IMG/VR virus record: IMGVR_UViG_3300020183_000162
Location: 1-43,093 of that record
DNA: 43,093 nt
Direction: 5' to 3' (one strand)
DNA from: a virus
The number at the start of each line of letters is the position of its first letter. Within the stretch, counting starts at the first letter, position 1. Below are positions 9,481 to 25,389 of the stretch, piece after piece. The notes under the pieces are model-generated. The model was not told the origin of the DNA. It did no database searches and saw only the letters and a program-made list of their open reading frames with translations. The position numbers and the translations under genes are program-made.

Positions 9481-9696
9481 TTAAGTGAGAAGTGGATCAT
9501 TGTAAAGGTCATCTATTTCAATCTTGAAATCGGCCAAGGTTTCTTCCACCCTCTCCTGCATATCAGGTGCATCGTGGAAGGCGTGGTTTCGTAACTCTGC
9601 GAGAGCTAAGTACATAGAAGGAGCAAGAATTGCCTTCTTATAGTTCACCATATCCTCCTCATTCTCTGTATCAAACTCAATCGTTATCTTTGCCAT
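9481..9696 (-). CDS. Small conserved phage protein, function unknown
   Basis: The 71-residue acidic protein begins MAKITIEFDTENEEDMVNY, a strand-then-helix opening common to small phage proteins of unknown role, and is otherwise helical. It overlaps the 3-prime end of the ParB-like gene by 20 bases. A TATCTTTG on the minus strand (9743-9750), inside the upstream gene, could give it an additional promoter. Confidence 0.55.
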   Translation of the reverse strand: MAKITIEFDTENEEDMVNYKKAILAPSMYLALAELRNHAFHDAPDMQERVEETLADFKIEIDDLYNDPLLT

Positions 9697-10267
9697 TGTG
9701 ATGATTTAGGAGGTAAACTACCGCTTCTTCAAATGTTTCGCCCAAAGATAACAACGCATCTCTCACATATAGGAACTCTTTTTTGTTAAATCTTAGGATA
9801 ATCTTTTGAGCCTTAGCGTTATCCTTCCTTTCCTCCTCTTCTTCCAACTCTTTTTCAATCTCTTCGGGCAACTGCCAGACCTCAATACCGCAATCGGCAA
9901 GGAGTTGAGCATCCCATTCGTTAGCGAGAGCATCGTAATCGTACTCCCCAAAAGACGAGTTGTCTTTGAGGGCAATCGCTTTGAGTTTAGCGATGGGCGT
10001 GTCAATGTCAAGGACTTTGCAGGGAGCCTCCGAATAACCAAGCTCTTTCATCGCCCTGAACCGCATATTACCGCCTATGACCACGAAGGTGTCTCCGTGG
10101 GGATACACGATTAACTCACGCAGGTTAAGCATTTCAGGGTCATCCTGAATGCTTTTAACGAGGGATGCAAACCTATCGTCCTTGATGAGGCGTGGGTTCT
10201 TTGGTAAGCCTTCAATCTGCCCTCCGTTGATACGCAGTTGATATAGCTTGAGCTTTTGTGCGTTCAT
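9677..10267 (-). CDS. ParB/Srx-fold protein
   Basis: The N-terminal half of this 196-residue protein has ParB N-domain features: NPR at 24-26, then GGNMRFRAMKELG at 65-77, the site for CTP or nucleic-acid contacts in ParB-like proteins. The C-terminal half has a strongly acidic helix (KELEEEEERKD) and no clear HTH. Many phages carry such ParB-like proteins next to methylases or nucleases, where they may act as nucleases or DNA-modification adaptors rather than in partition. Its start is immediately adjacent to the stop of the next gene upstream (TAGATG). Confidence 0.75.
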   Translation of the reverse strand: MNAQKLKLYQLRINGGQIEGLPKNPRLIKDDRFASLVKSIQDDPEMLNLRELIVYPHGDTFVVIGGNMRFRAMKELGYSEAPCKVLDIDTPIAKLKAIALKDNSSFGEYDYDALANEWDAQLLADCGIEVWQLPEEIEKELEEEEERKDNAKAQKIILRFNKKEFLYVRDALLSLGETFEEAVVYLLNHHNGKDND

Positions 10268-10537
10268 CTATGGAAGGTCTATCTCCCCGAAGAACGGTCT
10301 TTTGTCCGTGCTTTTCGCTCCCTTGCAAGACCACAATGCCCTTGCAAACCAATTCGGTGAGTGCGTTTCCGACTTGATACCGTTGGATCGGGAGCAGTAG
10401 TTGTCTCCCCTCGGAGTGCCTGGGGAGATTGTATATCCTGATGCACCGAACTGAACGGTCTTGCCATCTTTGGTGGCGGTGTATTTCTTTCCTTTTGCGG
10501 ATGACTTGGTGATCATCCAACCTCTGAACTCTGGCAT
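10268..10537 (-). CDS. Hypothetical phage protein (89 aa)
   Basis: The product is basic at the N-terminus (SSAKGKKYTATKDGK) and ends in a Trp/Phe-rich tail (RPFFGEIDLP). I recognise no family function. It sits flush between the ParB-like gene and the 10543 gene in the same frame direction, with intervals of 0 and 5 bases, so it is clearly an operon member. The predicted short beta strands and Gly turns may form a small folded domain. Confidence 0.6.
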   Translation of the reverse strand: MPEFRGWMITKSSAKGKKYTATKDGKTVQFGASGYTISPGTPRGDNYCSRSNGIKSETHSPNWFARALWSCKGAKSTDKRPFFGEIDLP

Positions 10538-11483: not shown

Positions 11484-11693
11484 TTAGTAATCATCGCTTC
11501 GGGGATTGGTTAAGTGTTTTGGCTTGATGAAGAACGTGGTGAGCAGGATGACGATGAACATAACAAGAATCAACGCCATCGTAATCCATAACGGAGCAAA
11601 GCACCAACCCCACGATATAATCGCAGGGCTGATGAGCTTCACTATGCACAACAATCCGCTAAGAATCGTTGGCCATTTGAGTAGATCCACCAT
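11484..11693 (-). CDS. Small membrane protein (two helices)
   Basis: The 69-residue protein has two hydrophobic segments, about residues 8-28 and 33-56, and a short basic C-terminus (KPKHLTNPRSDDY). Its ATG overlaps the stop of the previous gene (TAATG). The function is unknown; small early membrane proteins in phages often affect superinfection or host physiology. Confidence 0.55.
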   Translation of the reverse strand: MVDLLKWPTILSGLLCIVKLISPAIISWGWCFAPLWITMALILVMFIVILLTTFFIKPKHLTNPRSDDY

Positions 11694-11968
11694 TAGAACG
11701 GTAAATCTTCTTTTTCTTCCTGAACAGGAGCAACCTTGGGCGTTGGCCTCCAGGTGTTCAACTCAGCGTTGTGAGTGCCGTACTTGTCGGCTTCACGCTT
11801 AGGCCAAGACGCGATACGGACATAGCCCTTTTCATCACGATGCTCTTGAAGGAATGCAACGAACTTGTCCACGTTGTAAGCGATTTCAATCAGCTCCTTG
11901 CCGTTGATGTCTTTCTTGTTAACGTAAATCCCGTTTGCGAAAACTTTTGGGGGGTTTGTGTTTGCCAT
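11693..11968 (-). CDS. Small protein with SSB-like acidic C-terminal tip
   Basis: The 91-residue protein has a beta-rich N-terminal body (KVFANGIYVNKKDINGKELIE...) and a linker rich in Pro/Val/Gln, then the acidic-hydrophobic tip EEKEDLPF. Such a tip is the classic interaction tail of bacterial SSB (D-D-x-P-F), which recruits replication and repair proteins. Together with its place among helicase, annealing and nuclease genes, this suggests a small single-strand DNA-binding protein or a mimic of the SSB tail. An OB fold cannot be proved by eye. Its start overlaps the 3-prime end of the 11919 gene by 50 bases. Confidence 0.6.
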   Translation of the reverse strand: MANTNPPKVFANGIYVNKKDINGKELIEIAYNVDKFVAFLQEHRDEKGYVRIASWPKREADKYGTHNAELNTWRPTPKVAPVQEEKEDLPF

Positions 11969-12305
11969 TTTCGTAGATTTTAATGACTTTTTTTCTTTGG
12001 CGGTATCCGATTTTTTCTACCCGTTTATACATCTGACGATACCAATCAGTTGATGAACGGTCATAATTCTTTGGATGCGAGTATGAATCGTATCCCTCCT
12101 GGTAAGCACGCATAAGCCCTTTGCTCTCTACATCACGCAGAGATTCAACTCTTTTGACCACGGCTCTCTTAACGAGGAGATCAGGTTGGTTGGATAGCCA
12201 ATCCAAAAATAGCTCTATTGGGGTTGAACGATATTTAGGTTTCTCCGGTTCAATCTTGTCCACGGTGTATTTGATGTCATTACCATTGCTCTTGCCTTCA
12301 CTCAT
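11919..12305 (-). CDS. Conserved hypothetical replication-region protein
   Basis: I chose the start at 12305 (MSEGKSNGND), which lies in an ATGAGTGA overlap with the end of the DnaA-like gene; an upstream TTG-type extension would overlap that gene by about 100 bases. The 128-residue protein has a charged helix pattern: TPIELFLDWLSNQPDLLVKRAV, then EGYDSYSHPKNYDRSSTDWYRQMY, and a very basic C-terminus. It resembles phage proteins of unknown role which share S-T-P-I-E and a later Y-x-x-G-Y. Confidence 0.6.
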   Translation of the reverse strand: MSEGKSNGNDIKYTVDKIEPEKPKYRSTPIELFLDWLSNQPDLLVKRAVVKRVESLRDVESKGLMRAYQEGYDSYSHPKNYDRSSTDWYRQMYKRVEKIGYRQRKKVIKIYENGKHKPPKSFRKRDLR

Positions 12306-12816
12306 TGTTGATTGCTTTAATCTTAATGATGGACGATTGAGTGCAACGCTTGTCTTTGATGATGGACTTAACTTGGTCTTGCAGAACGGTATTCGCTTCA
12401 TCGGTGGTGTCCCAGAACCCGTAAAACTCGTCCTTCATCCCTGAACATTTGACGTGCAGGCCGTATTTGGTCTTGAACTTGCGTGGAACGATGGTGACTT
12501 TGCCTTCAATGATGTCGGAGAGATTTTGTATGTCAAACTTCGTTCCTCTTGCGTTGGTCTTGATTTCTTTCTCCACCACATTGCAGGAATGGATGACGGT
12601 GGAATGGTCTTGCGAAAAGAACACCCTACCAATGGCAAGTTTGCTGACCTCGGTGTATTTGCGGATGAGGTAGCAAGATAGCTGACGAGCGTGAACGATG
12701 TCCCTGCTTCGCTTTTTGGTTGGCATTAACGCAGGGTCAAGCTCATAGTAATCGCAGACCGTGTTGATGATATTCTGCACGATGCCGTATTCCAATTTAC
12801 CTACTTTGTGTTTCAT
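12298..12816 (-). CDS. Stand-alone DnaA domain IV-like DNA-binding protein
   Basis: Residues about 10-80 match DnaA domain IV: R-S-R-D-I-V-H-A-R-Q-L at 36-46, a helix-turn-helix, and DHSTVIHS at 70-77, the equivalent of DnaA signature DHTTVIHA that recognises the DnaA box. The AAA+ domain of DnaA is absent, so it cannot melt DNA itself. The remaining 90 residues are unrecognised. It probably binds DnaA boxes, such as the perfect one at 22307-22315, to start phage replication or block host initiation. It overlaps the microprotein gene upstream by ATGA. Confidence 0.85.
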   Translation of the reverse strand: MKHKVGKLEYGIVQNIINTVCDYYELDPALMPTKKRSRDIVHARQLSCYLIRKYTEVSKLAIGRVFFSQDHSTVIHSCNVVEKEIKTNARGTKFDIQNLSDIIEGKVTIVPRKFKTKYGLHVKCSGMKDEFYGFWDTTDEANTVLQDQVKSIIKDKRCTQSSIIKIKAINNE

Positions 12817-12965: not shown

Positions 12966-15115
12966 AGTTCTTTCATTAACGATTCAATATACTCAATCCT
13001 CTGCCCAATCCACCTCATCACCGGCACGGCCATTGAGTTACCGCAGGCTTTGTACCTCGGCCCATCAGGGCATTGGTCGGCAGGTTTGTTTCGGTAGGGG
13101 ATTTTCGTCCAATCATCGGGAAACCCTTGCAACCTTTCGCATTCCTTTGGGGTCAGCCTTCGGATAGCCATTGTGTGCTTAACTGCGTGAGGCCCTTTGG
13201 CTACAAGCGATGACATTGTCTGCCCTTGCTCAATCCGTGGCTCATATTGAGCCTTCTCGCCTTGGTTGAATGCCGCTCGGTCAATGATGGTAGGCTCTAA
13301 CACCGCTCCGTAATGGTTCACATCCGAAGCCGAAGAGCCAATCGTCTGCGAGGTCTTGTTATTGATGGTTTGCTTGAAGCAGTCCACGGCAATGGGTTGA
13401 GCAATCTTAGGCCCGCTTGTATTTGTGCCACCAACAGCCTTTGTAATTGTAGCAGAGGTTTGACCATCAATCGTTTGATTGTAAACATCCACGGCAATCG
13501 GTTGAGCGATTTGTTGGTCTTGCGTAGCACCAATGGTAAATGCCTTCTCATCTTGCCCAAGATACCCCTTACCTGCTTTCTTACCGGGCGTACCGCCCTG
13601 CTCTCCTGTTTCCGTTTCAGAACCACCACGAACTTTGAATGCGTGTACTGGTTGAGCGACTGGCTGAATTACCTTCAAATCGCTTTCGGCTTGGGTTACG
13701 GTTGGACTTACTTGAGGATTTTCCGTTATGTAACAACCGCCATTTGGTCTGTCCTTACGAGTGCCATTAGCATCATTAAAGCAGATTTGAATCGGTTGAG
13801 CGATTAACGGTTCGTGTCCGTGCGTTTCTCTTCGCAATGTACCGCATATCCCGCTTTGGCTTACATTCATTACTGAGCCACCTTGGTCATCTAACATAAT
13901 GGGTTGAGCAATCGCAATGCCTCCTTGATTCTTGGATGGTTCGGGAGTAGTGGTGTCAATGGTCTTGCTTGTGTCCACCTCTCTGCAACCGCTATGCGGA
14001 TTATTGGACTTCATTGAGTTGGAGGACAACGAGTCAAAGGAGTAGGCAATGAGTTGAGCGATAACTTGAGGCTCTTTGTAATCATCTGCCAAAAGAGGGT
14101 TTGCAATGTTATTACCGATGTTTTGAGAATATTGCTTTGAGGCTAAGGCAATGGGTTGAGCAGTTGGTTGCCCAACAATCGGAGTATTACCACCACCCAT
14201 TCCATAATTTGCGCTAACCGTGCTACCAACATCGTGTGGGCCTGTAACCCTTGAATCTTGAGCGTGATTATCAAAGTATTGAGGCTCATAAACCATATTG
14301 TCTGCTTCGCTCCTGCCACTCGGCTTACCATAGCCCGTTTTCCATTTACTTGTAACGGTAGGGCTTACATTTCCTCCTGCACAACTGACATCTTTGATTT
14401 GAATATCAAGACCTCTACCGCTCTCAAGGTCATCGTTCCCAATGCCCTTGTAATCTCTTTGCCTTAGAGTCCCGATGGTTTCTCTTCCATCAGGGCTTGT
14501 TGTTCCAACGCATTTTTGAGCATCGTAGGGAGTTTCTTGCCTCTTCGTTCTGCTCGGTTTAGAATCCCTCTGCAAGCTTTCGGACTCAAATAAAACCGCT
14601 GCGGCAGGTCTCCAATCTCCAAGGTATCCGACAACAAACACTCTTCTGCGTCTTTGTGCGACTCCGAAGTGTTGAGCGTCAAGAACTCGGTAGGCGAACC
14701 CATACCCGAGTTCGCCCAACGCCCCGAGGAAGGTTCCAAAATCTTTTCCTCCGTTAGATGACAACACACCGGGGACATTTTCCCAGACAATCCATTTGGG
14801 TTTCTTTGCGTCAGCCAATGCGAGAAATGTGAGCATAAGGTTTCCTCGTGGGTCAGCAAGGCCACCTCTAAGTCCGGCAACGCTGAAGGATTGGCAGGGA
14901 GTTCCTCCGACCAAAAGGTCAATTGATTTTTCATTGAATGTAGGGTTTGAAGTTAGTTTGGTCATATCCCCAAGGTTAGGGACATCGGGAAAGCGGTGTT
15001 TCAACACCTCCGAAGGGAAGTGTTCAATCTCTGAATACCATTGAGCCTCCCATCCAAGGGAGTGCCAAGCGACCGAGGCCGCTTCTATGCCTGAACAAAC
15101 GGATCCGTATTTCAT
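12962..15115 (-). CDS. DNA cytosine-5 methyltransferase with long repeat-bearing insert
   Basis: The 717-residue protein has all C5-methyltransferase motifs: SGIEAAS (I) near the N-terminus, PCQSF with catalytic Cys74 (IV), ENV at 112-114 (VI), QRRRR at 154-158 (VIII), RRLTPKECERLQGFPD (IX) and KACGNSMAVPV (X) near the C-terminus. It should methylate C5 of cytosine in phage DNA, protecting it from restriction or regulating it. Between motifs VIII and IX lies an unusually long insert (about 180-640) with about eight copies of a short I-A-Q-P-I-A/V phrase. Similar inserts occur in other phage enzymes, where they may hold target recognition. A different-frame ORF overlaps residues 61-217. Confidence 0.95.
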   Translation of the reverse strand: MKYGSVCSGIEAASVAWHSLGWEAQWYSEIEHFPSEVLKHRFPDVPNLGDMTKLTSNPTFNEKSIDLLVGGTPCQSFSVAGLRGGLADPRGNLMLTFLALADAKKPKWIVWENVPGVLSSNGGKDFGTFLGALGELGYGFAYRVLDAQHFGVAQRRRRVFVVGYLGDWRPAAAVLFESESLQRDSKPSRTKRQETPYDAQKCVGTTSPDGRETIGTLRQRDYKGIGNDDLESGRGLDIQIKDVSCAGGNVSPTVTSKWKTGYGKPSGRSEADNMVYEPQYFDNHAQDSRVTGPHDVGSTVSANYGMGGGNTPIVGQPTAQPIALASKQYSQNIGNNIANPLLADDYKEPQVIAQLIAYSFDSLSSNSMKSNNPHSGCREVDTSKTIDTTTPEPSKNQGGIAIAQPIMLDDQGGSVMNVSQSGICGTLRRETHGHEPLIAQPIQICFNDANGTRKDRPNGGCYITENPQVSPTVTQAESDLKVIQPVAQPVHAFKVRGGSETETGEQGGTPGKKAGKGYLGQDEKAFTIGATQDQQIAQPIAVDVYNQTIDGQTSATITKAVGGTNTSGPKIAQPIAVDCFKQTINNKTSQTIGSSASDVNHYGAVLEPTIIDRAAFNQGEKAQYEPRIEQGQTMSSLVAKGPHAVKHTMAIRRLTPKECERLQGFPDDWTKIPYRNKPADQCPDGPRYKACGNSMAVPVMRWIGQRIEYIESLMKEL
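14464..14934 (-). CDS. Overlapping ORF inside the methyltransferase gene (156 aa, +1 frame)
   Basis: The ATG at 14934 begins a 156-residue frame entirely inside the methyltransferase gene, same strand, different phase. The text includes LTLNTSE, an acidic CLLSDTLEIGDLPQRFYLSPKAC segment and GILNRAERRGKKLP. From memory these phrases recur in stand-alone phage proteins found beside methylases (S-x-x-L-E-x-G-D-x-P-x-R-x-x-L-S-x-K-A-C, then RAERRGK-x-LP). It may be a real overlapping gene, or the source frame from which such proteins came. The counter-explanation is a shadow of the strongly conserved enzyme motifs. Confidence 0.4.
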   Translation of the reverse strand: MKNQLTFWSEELPANPSALPDLEVALLTHEETLCSHFSHWLTQRNPNGLSGKMSPVCCHLTEEKILEPSSGRWANSGMGSPTEFLTLNTSESHKDAEECLLSDTLEIGDLPQRFYLSPKACRGILNRAERRGKKLPTMLKNALEQQALMEEKPSGL

Positions 15116-16482
15116 TAGAATGGGGCTTTATTGTTTGCGATTCTTTCCTCAAAGGTAGGGATTTCTCCGTTAAATTCCAACACTTTTGTGTATTCTAATT
15201 TAATTCTTGCCATTGCAGTACCAACCTTACCGTTGCGATTCTTCCTGACCAAGATCTCCATCACCTCCAACATTTCGTGTTTGTTGGGGTCGCTCTCCTC
15301 CATATACTCGGCAGGTCGGAACACGAACAAGATTTTGTCTGCATCAAATTCTAACTGCCCTGTCTCCCTTAAATCGCTCATCTTCGGTCGCTTGGTTTCC
15401 CTTTGCTCAACATTTCTTGACAAAGACGAAACCACGCAAAGCCATATATTCAGCCTCTTGCATATCATTTTTAGGTACTTGGAGATGTTGGTAACTTGCT
15501 CAATCCTTTGCTTACTGCGGTCTTCAGGGAGAGCGGAAATAAGTTGCAGATAATCTATGTAGGCTCCTTCAATCTTATGCGTCCTGATGAGCTTGATGAG
15601 TTCAAGTTCAATGCGTGTGGGGTCTGCCCCAGGTATATCAACGATGTGCAACGGAGCGTTCTTTACCCTATCCACCGCAATGCCCATTTCAATATATTGA
15701 TCTCGGCTGATCCGTGAGGTAACATCCAAAAACGCTTCGCCATCCACTTCGCAGAGGTTGGAAACAAGACGAGTCATTAACTGTTGCGTACTCATTTCAA
15801 GGGTGAAAAAGGCCACAGGCTTGCCGTTGATGGCTTGGTTAAGGGCAAATTGCACTCCAAGCGTGGTCTTACCCATACCGGGTCTGCCACCAAGCAGAAT
15901 GAACTCCGAAGGCTTAAAGCCTGTAATCAGAGAGTCGGTGTTGGAATGGTAGGTCGGGGTGATACGGTTATCCCTTCTCCCTGACATAATGTCTGCCATT
16001 TCAACCATATAACTGACAAGTAATTGGTGAACATCGGTGGCGATTGGGTCAGGGTCAAGCATCCGTATCTCCTGCATCTCGTTGTAGAGCTTATCTATGT
16101 CTTGATGCTTGAGAAATTGAACCTTGCACTCCTTGATTCGCTCACCGACATACCGCAGGTGGAGTTCGTGGCGGTAATGCTTCCATCCATCGCAATGGTA
16201 AATTCCGTTATTTATGTTGGAAAGGTAAACTGCGTCTATGGGCGTTTTGAGTTCAACGAGCTTGCCATAGACCGTTACGGTGTTGATAGGCTTTTCTTCC
16301 CTTCGTAATTCCCTGATAGCGCGAAAAACGTTCTTACGCGCCCCCGATTCAAAGTATTCCTCCCGAAGTTGAAGGACAATATCGCCTGGGCGTATGGATT
16401 CGGTAATTAGGATGCCAAGCATCCTATCTTGGTACTCATCGTACAATACCTGGCTCTGGAGTATAGTTTCGGAGTGATTCAT
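15115..16482 (-). CDS. dnaB: Replicative DNA helicase, DnaB-like
   Basis: I chose the ATG at 16482 (MNHSETIL), which begins the conserved N-domain; this overlaps the end of the upstream gene by 47 bases. The 455-residue protein has a DnaB N-domain, then Walker A GGRPGMGKT (near residue 198), Walker B in AYIDYLQLI (near 308), and the DLRETGQLE region typical of DnaB motif 4. It should unwind DNA at the fork as a hexamer with ATP. Its stop abuts the methyltransferase ATG. The C-terminus lacks any primase domain, so a host primase is probably used. Confidence 0.9.
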   Translation of the reverse strand: MNHSETILQSQVLYDEYQDRMLGILITESIRPGDIVLQLREEYFESGARKNVFRAIRELRREEKPINTVTVYGKLVELKTPIDAVYLSNINNGIYHCDGWKHYRHELHLRYVGERIKECKVQFLKHQDIDKLYNEMQEIRMLDPDPIATDVHQLLVSYMVEMADIMSGRRDNRITPTYHSNTDSLITGFKPSEFILLGGRPGMGKTTLGVQFALNQAINGKPVAFFTLEMSTQQLMTRLVSNLCEVDGEAFLDVTSRISRDQYIEMGIAVDRVKNAPLHIVDIPGADPTRIELELIKLIRTHKIEGAYIDYLQLISALPEDRSKQRIEQVTNISKYLKMICKRLNIWLCVVSSLSRNVEQRETKRPKMSDLRETGQLEFDADKILFVFRPAEYMEESDPNKHEMLEVMEILVRKNRNGKVGTAMARIKLEYTKVLEFNGEIPTFEERIANNKAPF

Positions 16483-17179
16483 CGGTTTGTTTTGAGGGTT
16501 TATTTTGGGTATGCCTCTCTGACGCATTTAGAGGCTCATCATTGAACGCTTTATGCGTAAGGTATCTCACAGGGTCTTTGCGGTACTTACGCTCGTAGAA
16601 GGCTTCTAAATAAGCGGGAAGGGTATTCCTAATTTTCTCCACCTCTTCGTCCGTGAGTTTGAACCAAGCGACCATTGCTTTGTCCTTGCCAACCTTCTTG
16701 TCGTAGAAGTTCCAAAAACCTTCAAACATCTCGGTCATCTGCTCGTGGGAGTAGATTGAATTTCGTCTTAATCTTTCAAAAACCCTCCCCTTCTCTTTTC
16801 CTTCCTCCCCTTCTTTCTCCCCCACACCCCCTCTATTATCCCTACCTTCCTTATCTCTACCCCTCAGAGATATATAATTGCTTATATCTTTATTATTATC
16901 TAATATAAATCTTATTCGTTCAATTTTGGTTTTTTTCTGCGAATCAAGGTAGGGAATGCGGATGTTTTCGCCATCCAAAACGAGCGTTTCGTTGGCAATC
17001 AAAGCTTCCAAAACGGGTTGTCCGAGCAGGGTCAGAGCCTCGTTCACGGTCATTTTGCCTTCGTAGGCGATGTAATCGCAGAAGAAATCCAAGGCAGCAA
17101 GTCGTATCACGCTTGGCTCTTTGCCAAGCCTTGACAATCTCCACCAGGTCGGGGAGAAGGTAAATTCGGGGTTTAGCAT
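16436..17179 (-). CDS. Replication initiator / helicase-loader-like protein
   Basis: The 247-residue protein has an N-terminal helical part, probably winged helix, a low-complexity Gly/Glu/Lys linker around residues 105-130, and a C-terminal segment (FWNFYDKKVGKDKAMVAW, then YRKDPVRYLTHKAF) I recognise from phage replication proteins that precede dnaB. It likely recruits DnaB to the origin. The linker DNA is a purine-rich run in the mRNA sense. The leader holds the CCAACCCCAAACCAATG start motif that recurs through this operon. Confidence 0.75.
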   Translation of the reverse strand: MLNPEFTFSPTWWRLSRLGKEPSVIRLAALDFFCDYIAYEGKMTVNEALTLLGQPVLEALIANETLVLDGENIRIPYLDSQKKTKIERIRFILDNNKDISNYISLRGRDKEGRDNRGGVGEKEGEEGKEKGRVFERLRRNSIYSHEQMTEMFEGFWNFYDKKVGKDKAMVAWFKLTDEEVEKIRNTLPAYLEAFYERKYRKDPVRYLTHKAFNDEPLNASERHTQNKPSKQTDESLRNYTPEPGIVR

Positions 17180-19350: not shown

Positions 19351-19809
19351 TCACAAAGATATAGTCGCCCCTCGTTTTTCCAAGCATTTTGCTAAAAATA
19401 ATTTTAACGATTCACCCTCCTCGGTTCCATCCTTTTTTCCTTGCGTCCAAAAGAATACTTGATTGCGGTCAATACCGGATTCGGTGGAAAGTTGGTTTAC
19501 TGTAACCTTATATCTATCCATAATCACCCGAATAAAGTCGGATTGACGCAAATTGAGGGTTAATTCGGAATTACGCAGAATTGCCTTTGCTTTCTTGACA
19601 GGAAGCGCCTTCGTGCGTTCAACCTTCTTGAGGAATGCAATCTCAATCTGCAATTCAGCAGCGCAAGTTTCAGGCTTTCGCATCCAATTAAAGATGGTGG
19701 AGATGCTTACTTTGGCATCCTTGCTGAAATCAACCATCGTATAGTCCATTTCTTTCAGGAGTAGTTTGAGGATTTCGTGCCTATGAAGGCGGTAGGGTTG
19801 TTTGTTCAT
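19351..19809 (-). CDS. Regulator with two helix-turn-helix segments
   Basis: The 152-residue protein contains two HTH-like stretches: residues about 12-46 (MDYTMVDFSKDAKVSISTIFNW) and about 95-130 (YKVTVNQLSTESGIDRNQVFFW). Each has the pattern of Cro/CI-type DNA-binding units and each ends with an aromatic F-N/F-W. A basic helix lies between. It is probably a transcription regulator, maybe of the nearby promoter at 19354 or of the origin-side promoter. The first gene with a clear regulator pattern in this operon. Confidence 0.6.
   Translation of the reverse strand: MNKQPYRLHRHEILKLLLKEMDYTMVDFSKDAKVSISTIFNWMRKPETCAAELQIEIAFLKKVERTKALPVKKAKAILRNSELTLNLRQSDFIRVIMDRYKVTVNQLSTESGIDRNQVFFWTQGKKDGTEEGESLKLFLAKCLEKRGATISL
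19354..19361 (-). promoter_or_regulatory. -7 element on minus strand (TATCTTTG)
   Basis: On the minus strand TATCTTTG lies 35 bases before the ATG at 19318, with a CTTG 19 bases further upstream as a possible -33 element. It sits inside the 3-prime end of the double-HTH gene. Confidence 0.5.
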
Positions 19810-20621
19810 TTGTTGAGGTTTGGTAGGTTAGATTTGAATGGTTTAGGTTGGGTGTTTAAGATTACTTCAATATCATTTGGGCTTGGCTCGTGCCGTACAT
19901 CTGCGCTTTCGCTTGCAGGTATTGTCCGTACAATACCCAATTCACTCGGAACGGTTGGATCACCTCCGACCAATCCGGCATTGTGCTTCGCACGCACGCT
20001 TTCTTGATTTCTTTTTGCCAGCTGGCGAACGGTGCCTCTGACGTAGGGTTGGATAAATTCAAATTCATAATAAAAGGGTTTAAGGTTAGATTCAATATAC
20101 TTTCTTAATCGCAATGATTTCATTCTTTGCTTTCTGTTTGACCTGCGGTTATTCTCGGCCCTAATCATCAACTGATTAATGACTCGCAAGGGGTACTTAC
20201 CAGGGGGTCTGCGAACCGTCTTTACTCCTGTGCGACCCGTGTATATAGTCGGCAGTTCAAGGCATCTCCTCACCGCATCGTAGTTCCAATTATTTTGATT
20301 TGCGATGTCCACAATATCGCCATCAATCAGATACTTCTTCATATCAAAGACAAGGATGGGAGGGAGGGGGAAATAGGGTCCCATCTCGGCTCTTCGCATA
20401 TTGCCTGGGAGCTTTTTGTTGCACCAATAATTAGCGGCAGAGTCAATCTTTGACTTGACATTATGAGCGTTGAAGTCAAGTAATGCTCTGACCTTCTTGT
20501 GGATGAGCCTATACGAAGATGTATTGTCCATTCCTCCCTTCTTCAAGATAAAGAGCAATCGGTTGGCCTCAAAGAAGTCAAGTTCTATGTTGCCCTTGAT
20601 GGATTTCGGTACGTTGTGCAT
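19806..20621 (-). CDS. Hypothetical early protein (271 aa)
   Basis: I recognise no family. The protein has a basic, Arg/Asn-rich middle (RAENNRRSNRKQRMKSLRLRKY) which suggests nucleic-acid binding, preceded by an ANQNNWNYDAVRRCLEL stretch that could be HTH-like, and a Pro-rich C-terminus. It overlaps the gene before by ATGA and the regulator after by ATGA. It may act with the regulator as a pair. Confidence 0.55.
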   Translation of the reverse strand: MHNVPKSIKGNIELDFFEANRLLFILKKGGMDNTSSYRLIHKKVRALLDFNAHNVKSKIDSAANYWCNKKLPGNMRRAEMGPYFPLPPILVFDMKKYLIDGDIVDIANQNNWNYDAVRRCLELPTIYTGRTGVKTVRRPPGKYPLRVINQLMIRAENNRRSNRKQRMKSLRLRKYIESNLKPFYYEFEFIQPYVRGTVRQLAKRNQESVRAKHNAGLVGGDPTVPSELGIVRTIPASESADVRHEPSPNDIEVILNTQPKPFKSNLPNLNK

Positions 20622-20917
20622 CAGTTCTTGGTCTCCTGCTCGTAATTCGTAGTCTCAATCAGCTCGTAAGCAAGGGCATGAAAGTCAATCCACGTCAAAC
20701 TCATTATCGTCAATGCTTTTGCTTGTGCATCGTCAATCTGGCAGGCTTGCTCCATATAGTAGGCGTGCATCAGGGCAGACAATTCGTCAGGGTCAATAAT
20801 GGACCTGGCCTTGCGCTTCCATATAAGGAAGTCAAGGGAGACCGACTTGCGCTTCCTTGGTCGGCTCATCGTCAAGCTATCGTCAAGGCTATCGTCAAAG
20901 GAGGAGGGAGGAGTCAT
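20621..20917 (-). CDS. Early protein whose N-terminus is built from TGACGAT repeats
   Basis: The ATG at 20917 is the first true one; the frame can also start at 20869 (MSRPRKRK). The product is 98 residues. Its first residues contain the doubled phrase DDSL-DDSL, which is the direct translation of the TGACGAT heptamer that fills this region. A basic RPRKRKS follows, then an acidic helical part. It overlaps the 20895 gene by 23 bases. The function is unknown. Confidence 0.5.
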   Translation of the reverse strand: MTPPSSFDDSLDDSLTMSRPRKRKSVSLDFLIWKRKARSIIDPDELSALMHAYYMEQACQIDDAQAKALTIMSLTWIDFHALAYELIETTNYEQETKN

Positions 20918-21140
20918 CGTCAAGGCGTTTAATGCGTCTGTAAATCGTCATCCAATAGTCAAAGCCCTCGTCAGTATGCCACCAAACAAAGCTCATCAAG
21001 GCATCATCAATACCGGCACATTCATCGTCAGCGTTTCTCAATATACGCTTAGGACCGCTTTGTTGAGCCTGGATATTGAACACGGCAGCCCCCGCCACAT
21101 CGGACGGGAGCTTGTCAAATAAGGTTTGTCGGATCGTCAT
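20895..21140 (-). CDS. Small hypothetical early protein
   Basis: The 81-residue protein begins MTIRQTLFDKLPSD and contains a Trp-rich segment (FVWWHTDEGFDYWMTIYRRIK), then an acidic LDDDSSLLL end encoded by the heptamer copies. It overlaps the following gene. I cannot name it. The heptamer copies at 20916, 20944, 21024 and 21133 lie inside it. Confidence 0.5.
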   Translation of the reverse strand: MTIRQTLFDKLPSDVAGAAVFNIQAQQSGPKRILRNADDECAGIDDALMSFVWWHTDEGFDYWMTIYRRIKRLDDDSSLLL

Positions 21141-21142
21141 TG

Positions 21143-21346
21143 TTAAGGCATTAAGGTTGCAGTAGCACGAAGGATGGCCTCGTGAGCAGATACTTCAACG
21201 TGAAGCTCGTCCACCATTTCATCGCCATAAACGATTATGTAAACGCGACCTTCGGCATCATCGTAGGCGTGTACTCCTTTGGATTCGTACCACCTGACCG
21301 CAGCTTTGGCGATGGTGTTCATTGATTTAAGAATAGGGCTGTTCAT
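21143..21346 (-). CDS. Small hypothetical early protein (67 aa)
   Basis: The product has a helix (TIAKAAVRWYESKGVHAY) followed by strands (GRVYIIVYGDEMVDELHVEVS) and a helix. The ATG at 21346 follows the AAACCCCAAACAAACCAATG leader, an elongated form of the operon start motif, which supports this start. The function is unknown. The gap to the next gene upstream is 27 bases. Confidence 0.55.
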   Translation of the reverse strand: MNSPILKSMNTIAKAAVRWYESKGVHAYDDAEGRVYIIVYGDEMVDELHVEVSAHEAILRATATLMP

Positions 21347-21373
21347 TGGTTTGTTTGGGGTTTAAGGTTGTGG

Positions 21374-21646
21374 TTAATCGTTAATAATAAAGGTATCGTC
21401 AGCCAAAATATAGCCCTCCTCCCAGGCCTGTTCAGGGGTCATATTCGCCATTCCCGTATAGGTAGTCAAGGTGTGGTGGGCATTGAATCGTTGCTCCTCT
21501 TCGGTTAGCCTATCGTCAATTTGCGAATAATTGTGGGGTATCTCAGCGATAGCACCAAAATAATCGTCAAAGAATCCGATAAAATGCCCAGCTCCTTTGT
21601 TGTTAGCCGGGAAATAATCAACGCGGTAAAAGTCTTTTGTTTTCAT
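21374..21646 (-). CDS. Small acidic early protein (90 aa)
   Basis: The protein is acidic with aromatic residues (FYRVDYFPANNKGAGHFIGFFDDYFGAIAEI). Its mRNA leader CAAACCCCAAACCAATG is at the same time the end of the upstream gene, where it codes QTPNQ-stop. The ATGA overlap thus combines start motif and coupling. The function is unknown; such proteins near the origin may target host enzymes. Confidence 0.55.
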   Translation of the reverse strand: MKTKDFYRVDYFPANNKGAGHFIGFFDDYFGAIAEIPHNYSQIDDRLTEEEQRFNAHHTLTTYTGMANMTPEQAWEEGYILADDTFIIND

Positions 21647-21915
21647 TGGTTTGGGGTTTGGAAGAAATACTCAAATTCGCTATTAAGTATAAGATCCAAA
21701 AAGGCAAACAATTCGCCACCGACTTGTAAACCAAGTGCTTCGGTCAAATCGTTGTGGAATTGAATTAAATCGTCAATCGTCAATTCGTCAATGCTGAAAG
21801 TCTCAAATTCGGTGTAGGATTGGATCGTCCGGGCGTCAACATTCAGCAACTGATCGCCATCGCGAAGGTGGACGAATTTGGGCAGGTGCGCGGGGATAGG
21901 GGTTGGTTGGTTCAT
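21643..21915 (-). CDS. First gene of the minus operon (90 aa)
   Basis: I chose ATG 21915 (MNQPTPIPAH) because the leader AAACCCCTACCAAATG and the -7 element at 21936-21943 lie just upstream; a longer frame would begin inside the heptamer array. The protein is acidic and helical (SIDELTIDDLIQFHNDLTEALG) and ends QTPNQ. It is the first gene expressed from the origin-side promoter, a place where phages often keep host take-over genes. The function is unknown. Confidence 0.6.
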   Translation of the reverse strand: MNQPTPIPAHLPKFVHLRDGDQLLNVDARTIQSYTEFETFSIDELTIDDLIQFHNDLTEALGLQVGGELFAFLDLILNSEFEYFFQTPNQ

Positions 21916-21935: not shown

Positions 21936-21943
21936 CAAAGGTA
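21936..21943 (-). promoter_or_regulatory. Promoter of the minus operon (-7 TACCTTTG)
   Basis: On the minus strand TACCTTTG lies 20 bases before the ATG at 21915, between the heptamer array and the first gene. It is the natural promoter for the whole 8580-21915 block. A -33 element is not clear, so an activator bound at the array could be needed. Confidence 0.5.
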
Positions 21944-21987
21944 ATATATATTTTTATCAATTGCGCCACATCATCAAAAACATTTTT

Positions 21988-22134
21988 TTCGTCAATCGTC
22001 AATCGTCAATCGTCAAGAAAAAAATATCGTCAATCGTCAATCGTCAAGAAAAAAATATCGTCAATCAATCGTCAATCGTCAATCGTCAACTATCGTCAAG
22101 AAATCGTCAATCGTCAAGAAATCGTCAATCGTCA
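21988..22134 (+). repeat. Dense iteron-like array: 15 copies of ATCGTCA
   Basis: After a variant TTCGTCA at 21988, exact ATCGTCA units start at 21995, 22002, 22009, 22026, 22033, 22040, 22057, 22068, 22075, 22082, 22092, 22103, 22110, 22121 and 22128. Several are head-to-tail with a 7-base period; triplets are separated by AGAAAAAAAT spacers, and the triplet-plus-spacer unit is itself repeated. Orientation is constant. This is the look of an iteron array for an initiator or regulator. It is not a CRISPR: there are no unique spacers. Confidence 0.9.
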
Positions 22135-22142
22135 ATCGTGTC

Positions 22143-22288
22143 CTAAATAGTGGACATGGAGGGCCTGGATGTCCAAAAAAGTGGACATGACCTAAAAAGT
22201 GGACACTTCGACCTGTTTTGTCTAATTTATTGGACATGTATAGAAAATTGAACATGGCGCAAATATAGCGTCTAATTTAATAGACACA
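22143..22288 (+). repeat. TGGACA boxes, operator-like repeats
   Basis: Related 16-17 base units occur at 22143-22158 (CTAAATAGTGGACATG), 22175-22189 (partial), 22192-22207, 22222-22238 and 22272-22288 (CTAATTTAATAGACACA); a further half unit, CTAATTTAGCG, begins at 22330 next to the plus promoter. TGGACAT at 22151 and ATGTCCA at 22169 form an inverted pair. They look like binding sites of one regulator. Confidence 0.65.
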
Positions 22289-22306
22289 AAACAAACATGA
22301 AATTAT

Positions 22307-22315
22307 TTATCCACA
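22307..22315 (+). promoter_or_regulatory. Perfect DnaA box (TTATCCACA)
   Basis: TTATCCACA matches the TTATnCACA consensus exactly, followed by an AT-rich run (22316-22335) suited to melting. The phage has its own DnaA domain IV protein at 12298. Confidence 0.7.
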
Positions 22316-22341
22316 ATTATAAAAAATATCTAATTTAGCGT

Positions 22342-22349
22342 TAAATTTG
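22342..22349 (+). promoter_or_regulatory. -7 element (TAAATTTG) of the amidoligase cassette
   Basis: TAAATTTG lies 8 bases before the ATG at 22358 and 35 before that at 22385. A start of transcription near 22356 would place the first ATG at the mRNA 5-prime end, so 22385, which has the CCCCAAACCATG leader, is the better start. Confidence 0.5.
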
Positions 22350-22384
22350 CATAGGCAATGAAGCCAAAACCTAAACCCCAAACC

Positions 22385-23932
22385 ATGAATGTAAACCCCT
22401 TCACAAACCGACCAAACACCGGCGCCGCCGTCCCTTGCCACTTGCCCGAATTAGGCGCATACATGGCCCCGAATTCCCCAAGGTATAAACGGATTGAAAC
22501 GGGCGACCCTTGGACCCCGGCGTACATACCGAAGACCCTAAGCCCTCGAAAAATTAGCCGCCTAAATTTAGGAAAATACTATGGACCCAACGCCGCCACC
22601 AATACCGGCGAAGGTCTAATAATAGATAACAAGGTCTTAATCCATGCAAAATACCTGCAATTCATGGAGCTAATCCAAAAAGACGCGCCGCAAAATTTCA
22701 ACACGACAAGCGCCTACGAAAAAACGGATAATAACGCCATATTGAACTATTTTGAGGGAGGCAAAATACGCTCTTTTTATGTTGAATTCACGGAATTAAG
22801 CCCCGACGCCACGAATTTAGAACGCGTAAAACGTGAAAGCTATTTAAGCCAATTAAGCCAAAAAATACGCGTTCGTACTTATTCCATGGCCCAAGCCTAT
22901 CAATTCATAAGCGCCCAAAATATAACCAAGGTCAAACCCTTTGAAAATAACCCAATTTTAGGCCCTTGGAAATTAGGGAACGAAAACGGAGCGCCGACAA
23001 TTTACGAGACCGAAGACCTAAGAACGCAGCACGAAAGCCTCCCAAGTTTACCAAGGTATCATGGCCCCACAAGGTCCACACGCGTTCTAAATAACGCGAG
23101 CGCAAAATGGCGGATAGCCTTTGAGGTCGAAAAGGAGGACGGGAAAGTAAGACGCGAAATACAGCGCCACCGCTTTAATGTTTTAAGCGGATATAAATTT
23201 GAGAGGGATGGAAGCCTTAGCAGTTCAGAGGGCTTCGAAATGATAAGCCCAATTTATAACCTTGAGGACCGCACCAAGATATTTAGCGACTTTGACAAAA
23301 TAAGCCCGATTCTAAATTCCAAATTTAGTAAATCGTGCGGAGGACATATAACCATCAGCCGCCGGGGAATGAATGCGGGAGAATTATTCGACAAGTTCGC
23401 GCCTTATTTACCTCTATTTTACGCGCTATATTTTGGAAGGCTCAAAAACCACTACAGCCACGCGCAAACCAAGGAGAGCGCAAAGAGGCACCCAAGCCGC
23501 GGCGCCGTAAATCTTAAGTTAAGCCAGAACGCCATCGAATTCAGGCTAATTAGCGCAGTTCCAAACGCCGAAACGCTCAAATTCAGGGTAAATCTTTTTA
23601 GGTATATAACCGACCAAATCGACGCAAACCCAAACACCACGCCTAAAGACGTGCTAAAGGCCATGCAATCAAATAGCACGCCTTTATATCAAATTTTGCG
23701 CCAACAATACACCGCCGACCAATTAAACGTTAAATTAAACCACGCATGTATCATGTATCTATTTTTAGAGCAAGCCGACCAAAACCAATTTAACGCGGAG
23801 CGCCAAAAAGAAATTTATGAAACATGGCAAAATTTAGGCGCTCAAAATAGGGACGCACTTGTAAGGACCTTCGGCGAGGACCACAAACCAACCCGACCCG
23901 ACGCCAACACCGACACCAACCCGAGCAAATAA
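22385..23932 (+). CDS. Amidoligase-like enzyme (GS-like fold, COOH-NH2 ligase)
   Basis: I prefer ATG 22385 because the bases before it, AAACCCCAAACC, are the operon start motif; a longer form at 22358 adds 9 residues. The C-terminal half (about 245-420) fits the phage/bacterial amidoligase family: a first F-E-V-E acidic strand, DGSL then GFEMISP, CGGHITIS with the metal or ATP-binding His, and later an A-I-E-F-R segment. Such enzymes join a carboxyl and an amine with ATP. The N-terminal 240 residues are not recognised. A class II amidotransferase gene follows, a pairing described for this family (Iyer and colleagues). Leu TTA, Ile ATA and Arg CGC codons are used much more than in neighbours. 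Confidence 0.75.
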   Translation: MNVNPFTNRPNTGAAVPCHLPELGAYMAPNSPRYKRIETGDPWTPAYIPKTLSPRKISRLNLGKYYGPNAATNTGEGLIIDNKVLIHAKYLQFMELIQKDAPQNFNTTSAYEKTDNNAILNYFEGGKIRSFYVEFTELSPDATNLERVKRESYLSQLSQKIRVRTYSMAQAYQFISAQNITKVKPFENNPILGPWKLGNENGAPTIYETEDLRTQHESLPSLPRYHGPTRSTRVLNNASAKWRIAFEVEKEDGKVRREIQRHRFNVLSGYKFERDGSLSSSEGFEMISPIYNLEDRTKIFSDFDKISPILNSKFSKSCGGHITISRRGMNAGELFDKFAPYLPLFYALYFGRLKNHYSHAQTKESAKRHPSRGAVNLKLSQNAIEFRLISAVPNAETLKFRVNLFRYITDQIDANPNTTPKDVLKAMQSNSTPLYQILRQQYTADQLNVKLNHACIMYLFLEQADQNQFNAERQKEIYETWQNLGAQNRDALVRTFGEDHKPTRPDANTDTNPSK

Positions 23933-23964: not shown

Positions 23965-24717
23965 GTGTGCATAGCAATTCTAAACAAATCAGGCCTAATA
24001 AGCCGCGAAGCCCTTAAAAACTCATGGAACAACAACAACCACGGCGCAGGCCTTGGATATGTAGAAAACGGAGAAACGAAAACCGCATATTTCCCAGCGT
24101 CGTTTCGATCCATGTATAAGTTCTATAAAGCCCTAAGACAAACAAATAAGGCCCCTATATTATTACACTTCAGGATCGCCACTTCAGGTTATAACGCCGA
24201 TATGCTCCACCCCCACACCATAACCGAAAACAAACTGATTCTAATCCATAACGGAATGATAAGAGGCCTAGGTAATAATAAGGTCAGTGATACCCGAGAA
24301 TTTGCAAACGCCCTGAGCCAATTAAAACCGAATGGAGTCAGCTTTTTCAATAACCAAGGAATAAAGACCCTAATCGAGACCGCGATAGGCACCGCCAATA
24401 AATTAGTATTTTTAGACAAATTAGGAAAATACTTTATTTTTAACGAGAGCGCCGGACACTGGGATAATAGCGGCGCGAACTGGTATTCAAACGAATCTTA
24501 TTTGGAACGCCAAGACTTCAAATACTATGGAAATGTAAAAATCTACAATAGCGCCACGCCAACAACAACAACAAGCCACACGCCGAACCCGTCAATAGGC
24601 TATAATCGCAGTTTATACGCCAACGACAAACACGCCGCCGACGTGCTGAAATTTGAGGAGGAGCAAATGAAACGACGCAAGGACAAAAGGCACGAATTTT
24701 GGCCGTATGTAGATTAA
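23965..24717 (+). CDS. Class II glutamine amidotransferase (Ntn hydrolase)
   Basis: Only a GTG start at 23965 fits, since a stop lies at 23950, and it puts Cys at residue 2, the catalytic N-terminal nucleophile after Met removal. Other family marks are H-F-R at 68-70, ATSG at 72-75, HNG at 95-97 and SDT at 108-110. It should hydrolyse glutamine, or act as the reverse amide-hydrolysing partner, to give ammonia to the amidoligase. It lacks a synthase domain, so it must work with another protein, clearly the gene before. Codon use is the same unusual type. The transcription unit ends in the terminator at 24745. Confidence 0.85.
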   Translation: MCIAILNKSGLISREALKNSWNNNNHGAGLGYVENGETKTAYFPASFRSMYKFYKALRQTNKAPILLHFRIATSGYNADMLHPHTITENKLILIHNGMIRGLGNNKVSDTREFANALSQLKPNGVSFFNNQGIKTLIETAIGTANKLVFLDKLGKYFIFNESAGHWDNSGANWYSNESYLERQDFKYYGNVKIYNSATPTTTTSHTPNPSIGYNRSLYANDKHAADVLKFEEEQMKRRKDKRHEFWPYVD

Positions 24718-24744
24718 CAACGCCAACACCACCACCAACAACAG

Positions 24745-24769
24745 GGGCCCAATTTAGGGCCCTTTTTTT
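24745..24769 (+). terminator. Terminator of the amidoligase cassette
   Basis: GGGCCC at 24745-24750 pairs with GGGCCC at 24757-24762 around an AATTTA loop and is followed by seven T. Confidence 0.85.
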
Positions 24770-25356
24770 ATGCGCTCAATTTTGCAGGGATGAAGAAGGG
24801 AGGAGGGGATGAAAGGAGGGGAGGGAGTCCCACCACACACCGACCCCCCAAAAAAACCAACAGCGCCCAAAAATAAAAACTAAAAATAGGGCCTATTTTG
24901 CGGCCGTTCGTCATCAACAAGCCAACAAGAGCAGAGGCCCGGCCACGCCTAAAATGTCCACTAAATAGGGCAGACCCGCGCAAAATTGTATATATAAACA
25001 CACTCTCCCCCACTCCCACTCCAACTCACCCCTTAACACATTCCAACAAATCTAAATTTAGGCATCTCTAAACTTGGTTGTCTGAATTGGATGGATTTAG
25101 AGAATTTTTGATAGCCAAAATGCGTATCAAAAAAAAGTAAATTGAGCGAATAAGATATTATTTATCTCTAAATATAGATTATTATATATACAGTTATCTA
25201 TATATACAATTAATAGTATGTATAATTAATTATATATATAGTATAGGGAAGAAAAAAGAAAAAAGTCTTTTTGTTGAAAAAAAGCCTATTGCAAGAAATT
25301 GAGTTTTTGGAATAAAAGGGTACACCCCCCATTTTTTTTGGCGATTTCAAACTGAC
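24770..25356. other. Long non-coding stretch before the terminase genes
   Basis: About 590 bases with no credible gene. It contains a purine G-A run (24788-24830), a TGGACA box in reverse (24954-24968), a hairpin candidate TCTCTAAA/TTTAGAGA (25065-25072 with 25096-25103, followed by five T), and an extremely AT-rich, TATA-repeated block (25140-25250). Its place just upstream of the small terminase is where pac or cos sites usually lie. Confidence 0.5.
24954..24968 (-). repeat. Reverse TGGACA box at right edge of cassette
   Basis: ATGTCCACTAAATAG is, on the minus strand, CTATTTAGTGGACAT, near-identical to the boxes at 22143-22238, but in the opposite orientation. The amidoligase cassette is thus bracketed by these boxes. 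Confidence 0.5.
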
Positions 25357-25389
25357 TTTGGCTGAATAATTGATTTATCCCTACTTTTG
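25357..25389 (+). promoter_or_regulatory. Full Bacteroidota-type promoter of the terminase block
   Basis: TTTG at 25357-25360, a 21-base spacer and TACTTTTG at 25382-25389 give both the -33 and -7 elements at normal spacing; the ATG at 25394 is 4 bases on. It is the best-formed promoter in the window and fixes the small-terminase start. Confidence 0.7.

Follow-up and report, generated by a model that had tools for sequence, protein, structure and literature searches.

Introduction

In the parS region of pSM19035, each cluster is composed of 7 to 10 contiguous 7-bp sites that overlap promoters, and the protein that binds them is both a regulator and a partition protein (PMC9499535). These sites (5'-WATCACW-3', recognized by the RHH protein omega) are non-palindromic, and in this, as well as in their length, contiguity and overlap with promoters, they resemble an array of heptamers found in a phage genome and described here (PMC9499535). 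The pSM19035 sites are, however, unspaced, may be inverted and are distributed in six separate clusters, whereas the phage array keeps a single orientation, has copies inside genes, and shows an 11-bp spacing nearly as often as one of 7 bp. By likeness of layout, pSM19035 parS may serve as the nearest working analogy for the phage array.

Lambdoid iteron origins (O protein, ori-lambda) share with the array the placement of repeats beside an A+T-rich tract, and loader and DnaB partners supplied by phage or host (PMC7466680). Yet the iterons of ori-lambda are longer and number only 4-6, and they sit centrally within the initiator gene, while the phage array may contain as many as 20 heptamers and lies between divergent genes, approximately 5 kb from the loader gene; moreover, the N-terminal domain of the phage loader varies independently of the heptamer, unlike in the ori-lambda arrangement. 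With immunity regions of the lambda type, the locus has in common divergent promoters, five palindromic operator-like boxes and HTH genes in the neighbouring operon, the heptamer array being an additional element in the phage. TRAP-type leader RNA sites, generally known as many short same-sense sites with small spacers, would be similar in these respects if the leftward promoter to the right of the array (P_L2, see below) is active, but differ from the phage array in motif, spacing and host group.

Results and Discussion

Organization of the divergent region

The window, i.e. the whole stretch of DNA analyzed, is a virus record of 43,093 bp from a phage of Bacteroidota-type bacteria. Leftward early genes run from 21915 down to 8580 and encode HTH proteins, a Rad52-like protein, a loader, DnaB, a C5 methyltransferase, a DnaA domain IV protein and an exonuclease, while the rightward genes, starting at 22358, encode a 524-aa protein, a class II amidotransferase-like protein, terminase and tail proteins. 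As the first ATGs lie at 21915 on the left and 22358 on the right, the stretch between them is gene-free, in agreement with an earlier note made from the letters of this DNA. The replication genes that the note had listed for the phage were also found, in the early operon, namely a DnaB-type helicase (15115..16527, - strand), a loader/initiator-like protein (16436..17179, - strand; PHROG 270, 'replication initiation protein') whose N-terminal part varies between clades, and a protein consisting of DnaA domain IV only (12298..12816, - strand).

On the rightward side, the 524-aa protein (22358-23932, + strand) is amidoligase-like by eye, with no Pfam match and no matches in a first viral search, and adjoins the class II glutamine amidotransferase-like gene (23965-24717, + strand); this pair is also present in genomes G002 and G020, other genes taking its place elsewhere. 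A 650-bp A+T-rich intergenic stretch (24718-25370), with 16-bp A+T repeats (25162-25240), lies upstream of the terminase genes and is a possible alternative site for an origin or a packaging signal.

The 15 ATCGTCA units reported in the earlier note were confirmed as exact copies at 21995-22134, all on the + strand. The array core (21988..22134, + strand) contains 16 TCGTCA words, 15 of them within ATCGTCA, at spacings of 7, 10, 11 and 17 bp, and reads (TTGACGAT)n on the leftward strand. The array is nonetheless larger than first described: 14 more copies, dispersed on the same strand over 20706..21782 (+) in small leftward genes, had been missed, as had the spacing pattern, 7 and 11 bp being the rule across relatives. 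In total, the window holds 40 copies of ATCGTCA against 4.3 ± 2.0 in shuffled sequences, a number not attained in any of the 100 shuffles. The heptamer was absent from the literature searched.

The pair of divergent promoters proposed earlier is present, with Bacteroidota-type -7 elements left of the array (P_L1, TACCTTTG, of the form TAnnTTTG; 21936..21943, - strand) and on the rightward side (P_R, TAAATTTG; 22342..22349, + strand), but a second leftward promoter to the right of the array had been overlooked (P_L2, TTTG-N19-TATATTTG; 22260..22290, - strand). The Bacteroidota promoter pattern, TTTG approximately 19 nt upstream of TAnnTTTG, is exact in P_L2 and limited to the -7 element in P_L1 and P_R, -33 elements being mostly poor in these promoters. 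Transcription of the leftward early operon from P_L2 would place the array in the 5' leader of its RNA. Regarding the relatives described below, a box comparable to P_L1 occurs left of the array in most of those from the nearer clades. To the right of the array, 23 of 32 regions carry a leftward -7 box, while shuffled sequences predict 3.3; the relatives are not independent of one another, and a more distant clade (8 regions) has no leftward -7 box on that side.

The operator-like boxes noticed previously were confirmed as five palindromes (TGTCY-N8-RGACA) at 22139, 22170, 22188, 22219 and 22270 (22139..22286 overall), the last of them within the -33/-7 spacer of P_L2. This block is present in only part of the relatives and thus represents a separable module; in the genomes compared, the heptamer array is better conserved than the palindromes. 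The adjacent A+T-rich tract (22287..22350) contains upstream parts of both P_R and P_L2, together with a perfect DnaA box (TTATCCACA; 22307..22315, + strand), which the earlier note had pointed out and which is the sole exact match in the window.

Conservation of the array in related phages

Relatives were retrieved by an exact-pattern scan and a terminase scan of viral contigs, both of which converged on one phage family. At least 30 related phage contigs from metagenomes carry the array, its location in the divergent region and its orientation being unchanged, with the consensus ATCGTCAA and a usual spacing of 7 or 11 bp. Every relative covering the divergent region, longer records included, carries it, always on the + strand relative to terminase and at the left-hand boundary of the rightward unit, and the relatives without it are contigs that end short of this region. 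The earlier note had suggested comparing related phages and had counted loss of the array in close relatives against its reading; since the array is kept in all relatives covering the region, no such loss occurred. Moreover, the exact motif is retained down to identities of 72% for TerL and about 41-43% for DnaB.

Across 32 distinct regions, the motif was A(77%)TCGTCAA(89%), with 7 bp (150 cases) and 11 bp (104 cases) as the commonest spacings, the spacer sequence being variable at 11 bp. Forward sites averaged 14.5 per region, while TGACGA on the opposite strand was found 3 times in total. In one clade the first three sites are fixed, 2-3 bp from the -7 box and with spacings of 7 and 18 bp, and the copy number of the distal cluster varies between 6 and 14 among genomes whose flanks are more than 90% identical.

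Close relatives thus vary in heptamer copy number and spacing order, as a neutral heptanucleotide microsatellite would, and tandem heptamer runs also occur in viral contigs unrelated to the phage family. Such an origin of the array is nevertheless highly improbable in view of the preservation of the exact motif over the identities given above, the 11-bp spacing with variable spacers, and the in-gene copies, which are more numerous than expected in each of the two usable reading frames. Perfect tandem (GATTGAC)n runs were recorded in two unrelated viral contigs (L134, 6189-6244 and 8826-8881; L135, 10863-10953).

Searches beyond this family yielded little. No close phage was found in GenBank by DNA, and Flavobacterium phage 11b shares 31% identity in TerL. 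A host prophage bearing the array was also sought, and the sole genome match (L200, Pedobacter nyackensis, NZ_FWYB01000001.1; TerL identity 43%) does not have it. Occurrence of the array in unrelated phages, which would suggest a binding protein of the host, was likewise rejected for the part of the other matching viral contigs that was examined individually, these being mostly chance matches or plain heptamer runs with no homologous genes.

Strand distribution of the heptamer core

The dispersed heptamers are located in five small early genes (20621-20923, 20895-21140, 21143-21346, 21374-21646 and 21643-21915; all within 20621..21915, - strand), of which 20895-21140 is conserved in relatives and most of the others are not. 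On the coding strand of these genes TGACGA occurs 16 times, against 4.0 expected for the same proteins under the codon usage of the phage, and the excess is seen in both usable frames. It recurs in seven further genomes, although it is small in one with little coding sequence (2 vs. 0.8 expected), and the opposite word is absent from the early genes that bear it. Heptamer copies extend only leftward into the early genes, at 2 to 8 times expectation in eight genomes.

Outside the array zone, nine representative genomes contained 2 TCGTCA words on the + strand vs. 31.7 expected, and 100 on the - strand vs. 91.4, the expectation being derived from synonymous codon shuffling. Among 4,090 hexamers, this bias took 4th place when ranked on strand log-ratio, but 22nd on z-score difference and 62nd once agreement of both gene compartments was required, and the neighbouring CGTC and GACG words are likewise under-represented in general, so that the avoidance of TCGTCA on the + strand is suggestive. 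By compartment, the word complementary to TGACGA was found once in the rightward genes (23.6 expected), while the sense word TGACGA was not avoided in the late genes (93 vs. 83.3). The oriented TCGTCA core might constitute a strand-specific mark of the genome, concentrated in the array and over the initial 1-2 kb of the early operon, under selection even within coding sequence, and avoided in this orientation elsewhere. We regard this as unlikely; if true, one strand of the genome would be read directionally, in replication, recombination, packaging or RNA pairing, by a process able to recognize single copies. The orientation rule, together with selection within coding genes, is unusual for operators or iterons and has to be explained whatever the function of the array.

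One explanation at the RNA level would be that UUGACGAU sites, transcribed from P_L2 into the leader and early mRNA, bind an RNA-binding protein that forms oligomers, as TRAP does on repeated triplets, or pair with other RNAs. The array has one orientation, its copies are confined to the side of P_L2 that is transcribed leftward, whether leader or coding sequence, and the word that rightward genes avoid is the complementary one, all of which is consistent with such an element; the lack of avoidance of TGACGA in the late genes is not, nor is the result for the more distant clade, where no leftward -7 box was found on the right-hand side. In addition, predicted folding of the array was not consistently stronger than that of shuffled sequences, predicted structure was inconsistent between relatives, and there was no candidate RNA-binding protein, leaving RNA sites as quite unlikely.

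Orientation and strand-specific avoidance elsewhere would also suit the site of a directional motor, namely a centromere-like or packaging (pac-like) site recognized directionally, and the 7-bp tandem sites resemble parS of pSM19035. Pfam and PHROG scans of the early proteins, which covered part of the small ORFs, gave no match to RHH or ParA, however. Moreover, pac sites usually lie within or beside the small terminase gene, while the terminase genes are 3.2 kb from the array here and approximately 7 kb in other relatives; a function of this kind therefore seems very unlikely.

The array as a candidate replication origin

In the earlier note, the region was read as a candidate initiator-driven replication origin. 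Spelled out, this would mean that the heptamers would be iterons for a phage initiator, the A+T-rich tract would unwind, and the phage loader would bring DnaB; the dispersed copies would then behave like the extra iterons of plasmids. Part of this reading stood. Tandem, directly repeated short sites kept in relatives, as in iteron origins, are present in the divergent intergenic region of every relative covered, with an A+T-rich flank and with genes for DnaB, the loader and the DnaA domain IV protein in the neighbouring operon, and iterons adjoining an A+T-rich tract correspond to the layout of ori-lambda (PMC7466680).

Other findings speak against it. The DnaA box was exact in 1 of 36 array regions, that of this genome, and the relaxed form TTWTNCACA was found in 2 of 36, so that it was rejected as a functional anchor; although a DnaA box is not required by every iteron origin, a perfect one beside repeats is not to be read as an origin before relatives are checked. 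The heptamer is constant while the N-terminal domain of the loader, the part with which a protein like lambda O would contact iterons, is swapped: in G003 and G016 this domain is non-homologous to that of the window or G002, and the heptamer is identical. The distance of the array from the loader gene also weighs against an origin, since lambdoid iterons lie within the initiator gene, as does the overlap of the A+T-rich tract with promoter elements.

The cumulative GC-skew check proposed earlier placed the minimum away from the array, and only the AT-skew minimum (21659) falls here. The latter coincides with the switch in gene direction, and four-fold sites flip with gene strand; the skew test therefore cannot decide on an origin, and neither GC nor AT skew was retained for this purpose. 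A lambda-like origin inside the loader gene of the window was also discarded, as no repeats occur there. Of 11 genomes, 8 (G001, G002, G003, G012, G014, G015, G016 and G019) carry a DnaA-like box (≤1 mismatch) in the same orientation in or at the loader gene, yet it is weak and possibly a coincidence, being encoded by VDK/VDI residues. On balance, an iteron origin is possible, if on the unlikely side.

Proposed control of the early operon and candidate binding proteins

A control element for the early genes is more likely than a replication origin, and we tentatively interpret the array as an element that acts in cis, through multiple sites, to control the leftward early operon, followed in decreasing likelihood by an iteron origin, RNA sites, and a centromere or packaging site. 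This interpretation is favored by the array abutting a leftward -7 box, the frequent second -7 box on its right, the near-single orientation, and the copies extending only leftward. Precedent is provided by omega of pSM19035, whose contiguous 7-bp sites overlap and regulate promoters (PMC9499535). Sites located 1-2 kb inside genes, on the other hand, are unusual for a plain operator.

As a possible mechanism, a phage protein would bind cooperatively to the oriented ATCGTCAA sites, which occupy the DNA from P_L2 on the right to P_L1 on the left and continue over the initial 1-2 kb of the operon. Early transcription would be set or shut off in this way, perhaps through autoregulation, with an HTH-like protein encoded in this operon as the binder; the target may be either DNA or leader RNA. 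The position, orientation and conservation of the array, its overlap with promoters and the selection of its motif inside coding genes are established at the level of sequence; from them we infer that the heptamers may be protein-binding sites, that an HTH-like protein may be the binder, and that transcription would be affected. If this is right, common uncharacterised metagenomic phages with Bacteroidota-type promoters would share an array-based element for early control (or an origin), and the array motif, the spacing rule and a candidate binding protein are now defined enough for testing.

The leading candidate for the array binder, judging from sequence and a modelled fold, is a putative HTH-like protein of 271 aa (19806..20621, - strand). 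In the array-bearing genomes tested, the early operon encodes a member of its family (22 matches among 3,682 distinct ORFs). Residues P85, P87, G101, Y143, A155, E156 and R173 (window numbering) are invariant in this family, and a short homologue was predicted by AlphaFold to adopt a tri-helical HTH-like fold with moderate confidence (pLDDT 71). Weak PDB matches to a profile of the family included P22 Cro and a TetR-type regulator alongside unrelated chains, and the PDB fold search produced no significant match; small phage proteins, one of them annotated as a Fis-type HTH, matched it by fold below significance. The DnaA domain IV protein, the DUF5754 protein, the ParB-N-like protein, DnaB and the loader are just as universal in relatives, so that co-occurrence singles out no binder, and the HTH-like protein is proposed accordingly as a candidate. 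A neighbouring protein with two HTH-like regions (19351..19809, - strand) might possibly bind the palindromes.

Three further early genes were distinctive. The product of 10268-10537 (- strand; 89 aa, DUF5754 match) is unusually conserved, with 80-98% identity in relatives whose DnaB is only ~43% identical, and that of the adjacent 9677-10267 (- strand) resembles a ParB N-terminal domain (PHROG 17622) and is conserved in the phage family. The 91-aa product of 11693-11968 (- strand) ends in EEKEDLPF, an SSB-like acidic tail, and may be a single-strand binding protein of the phage.
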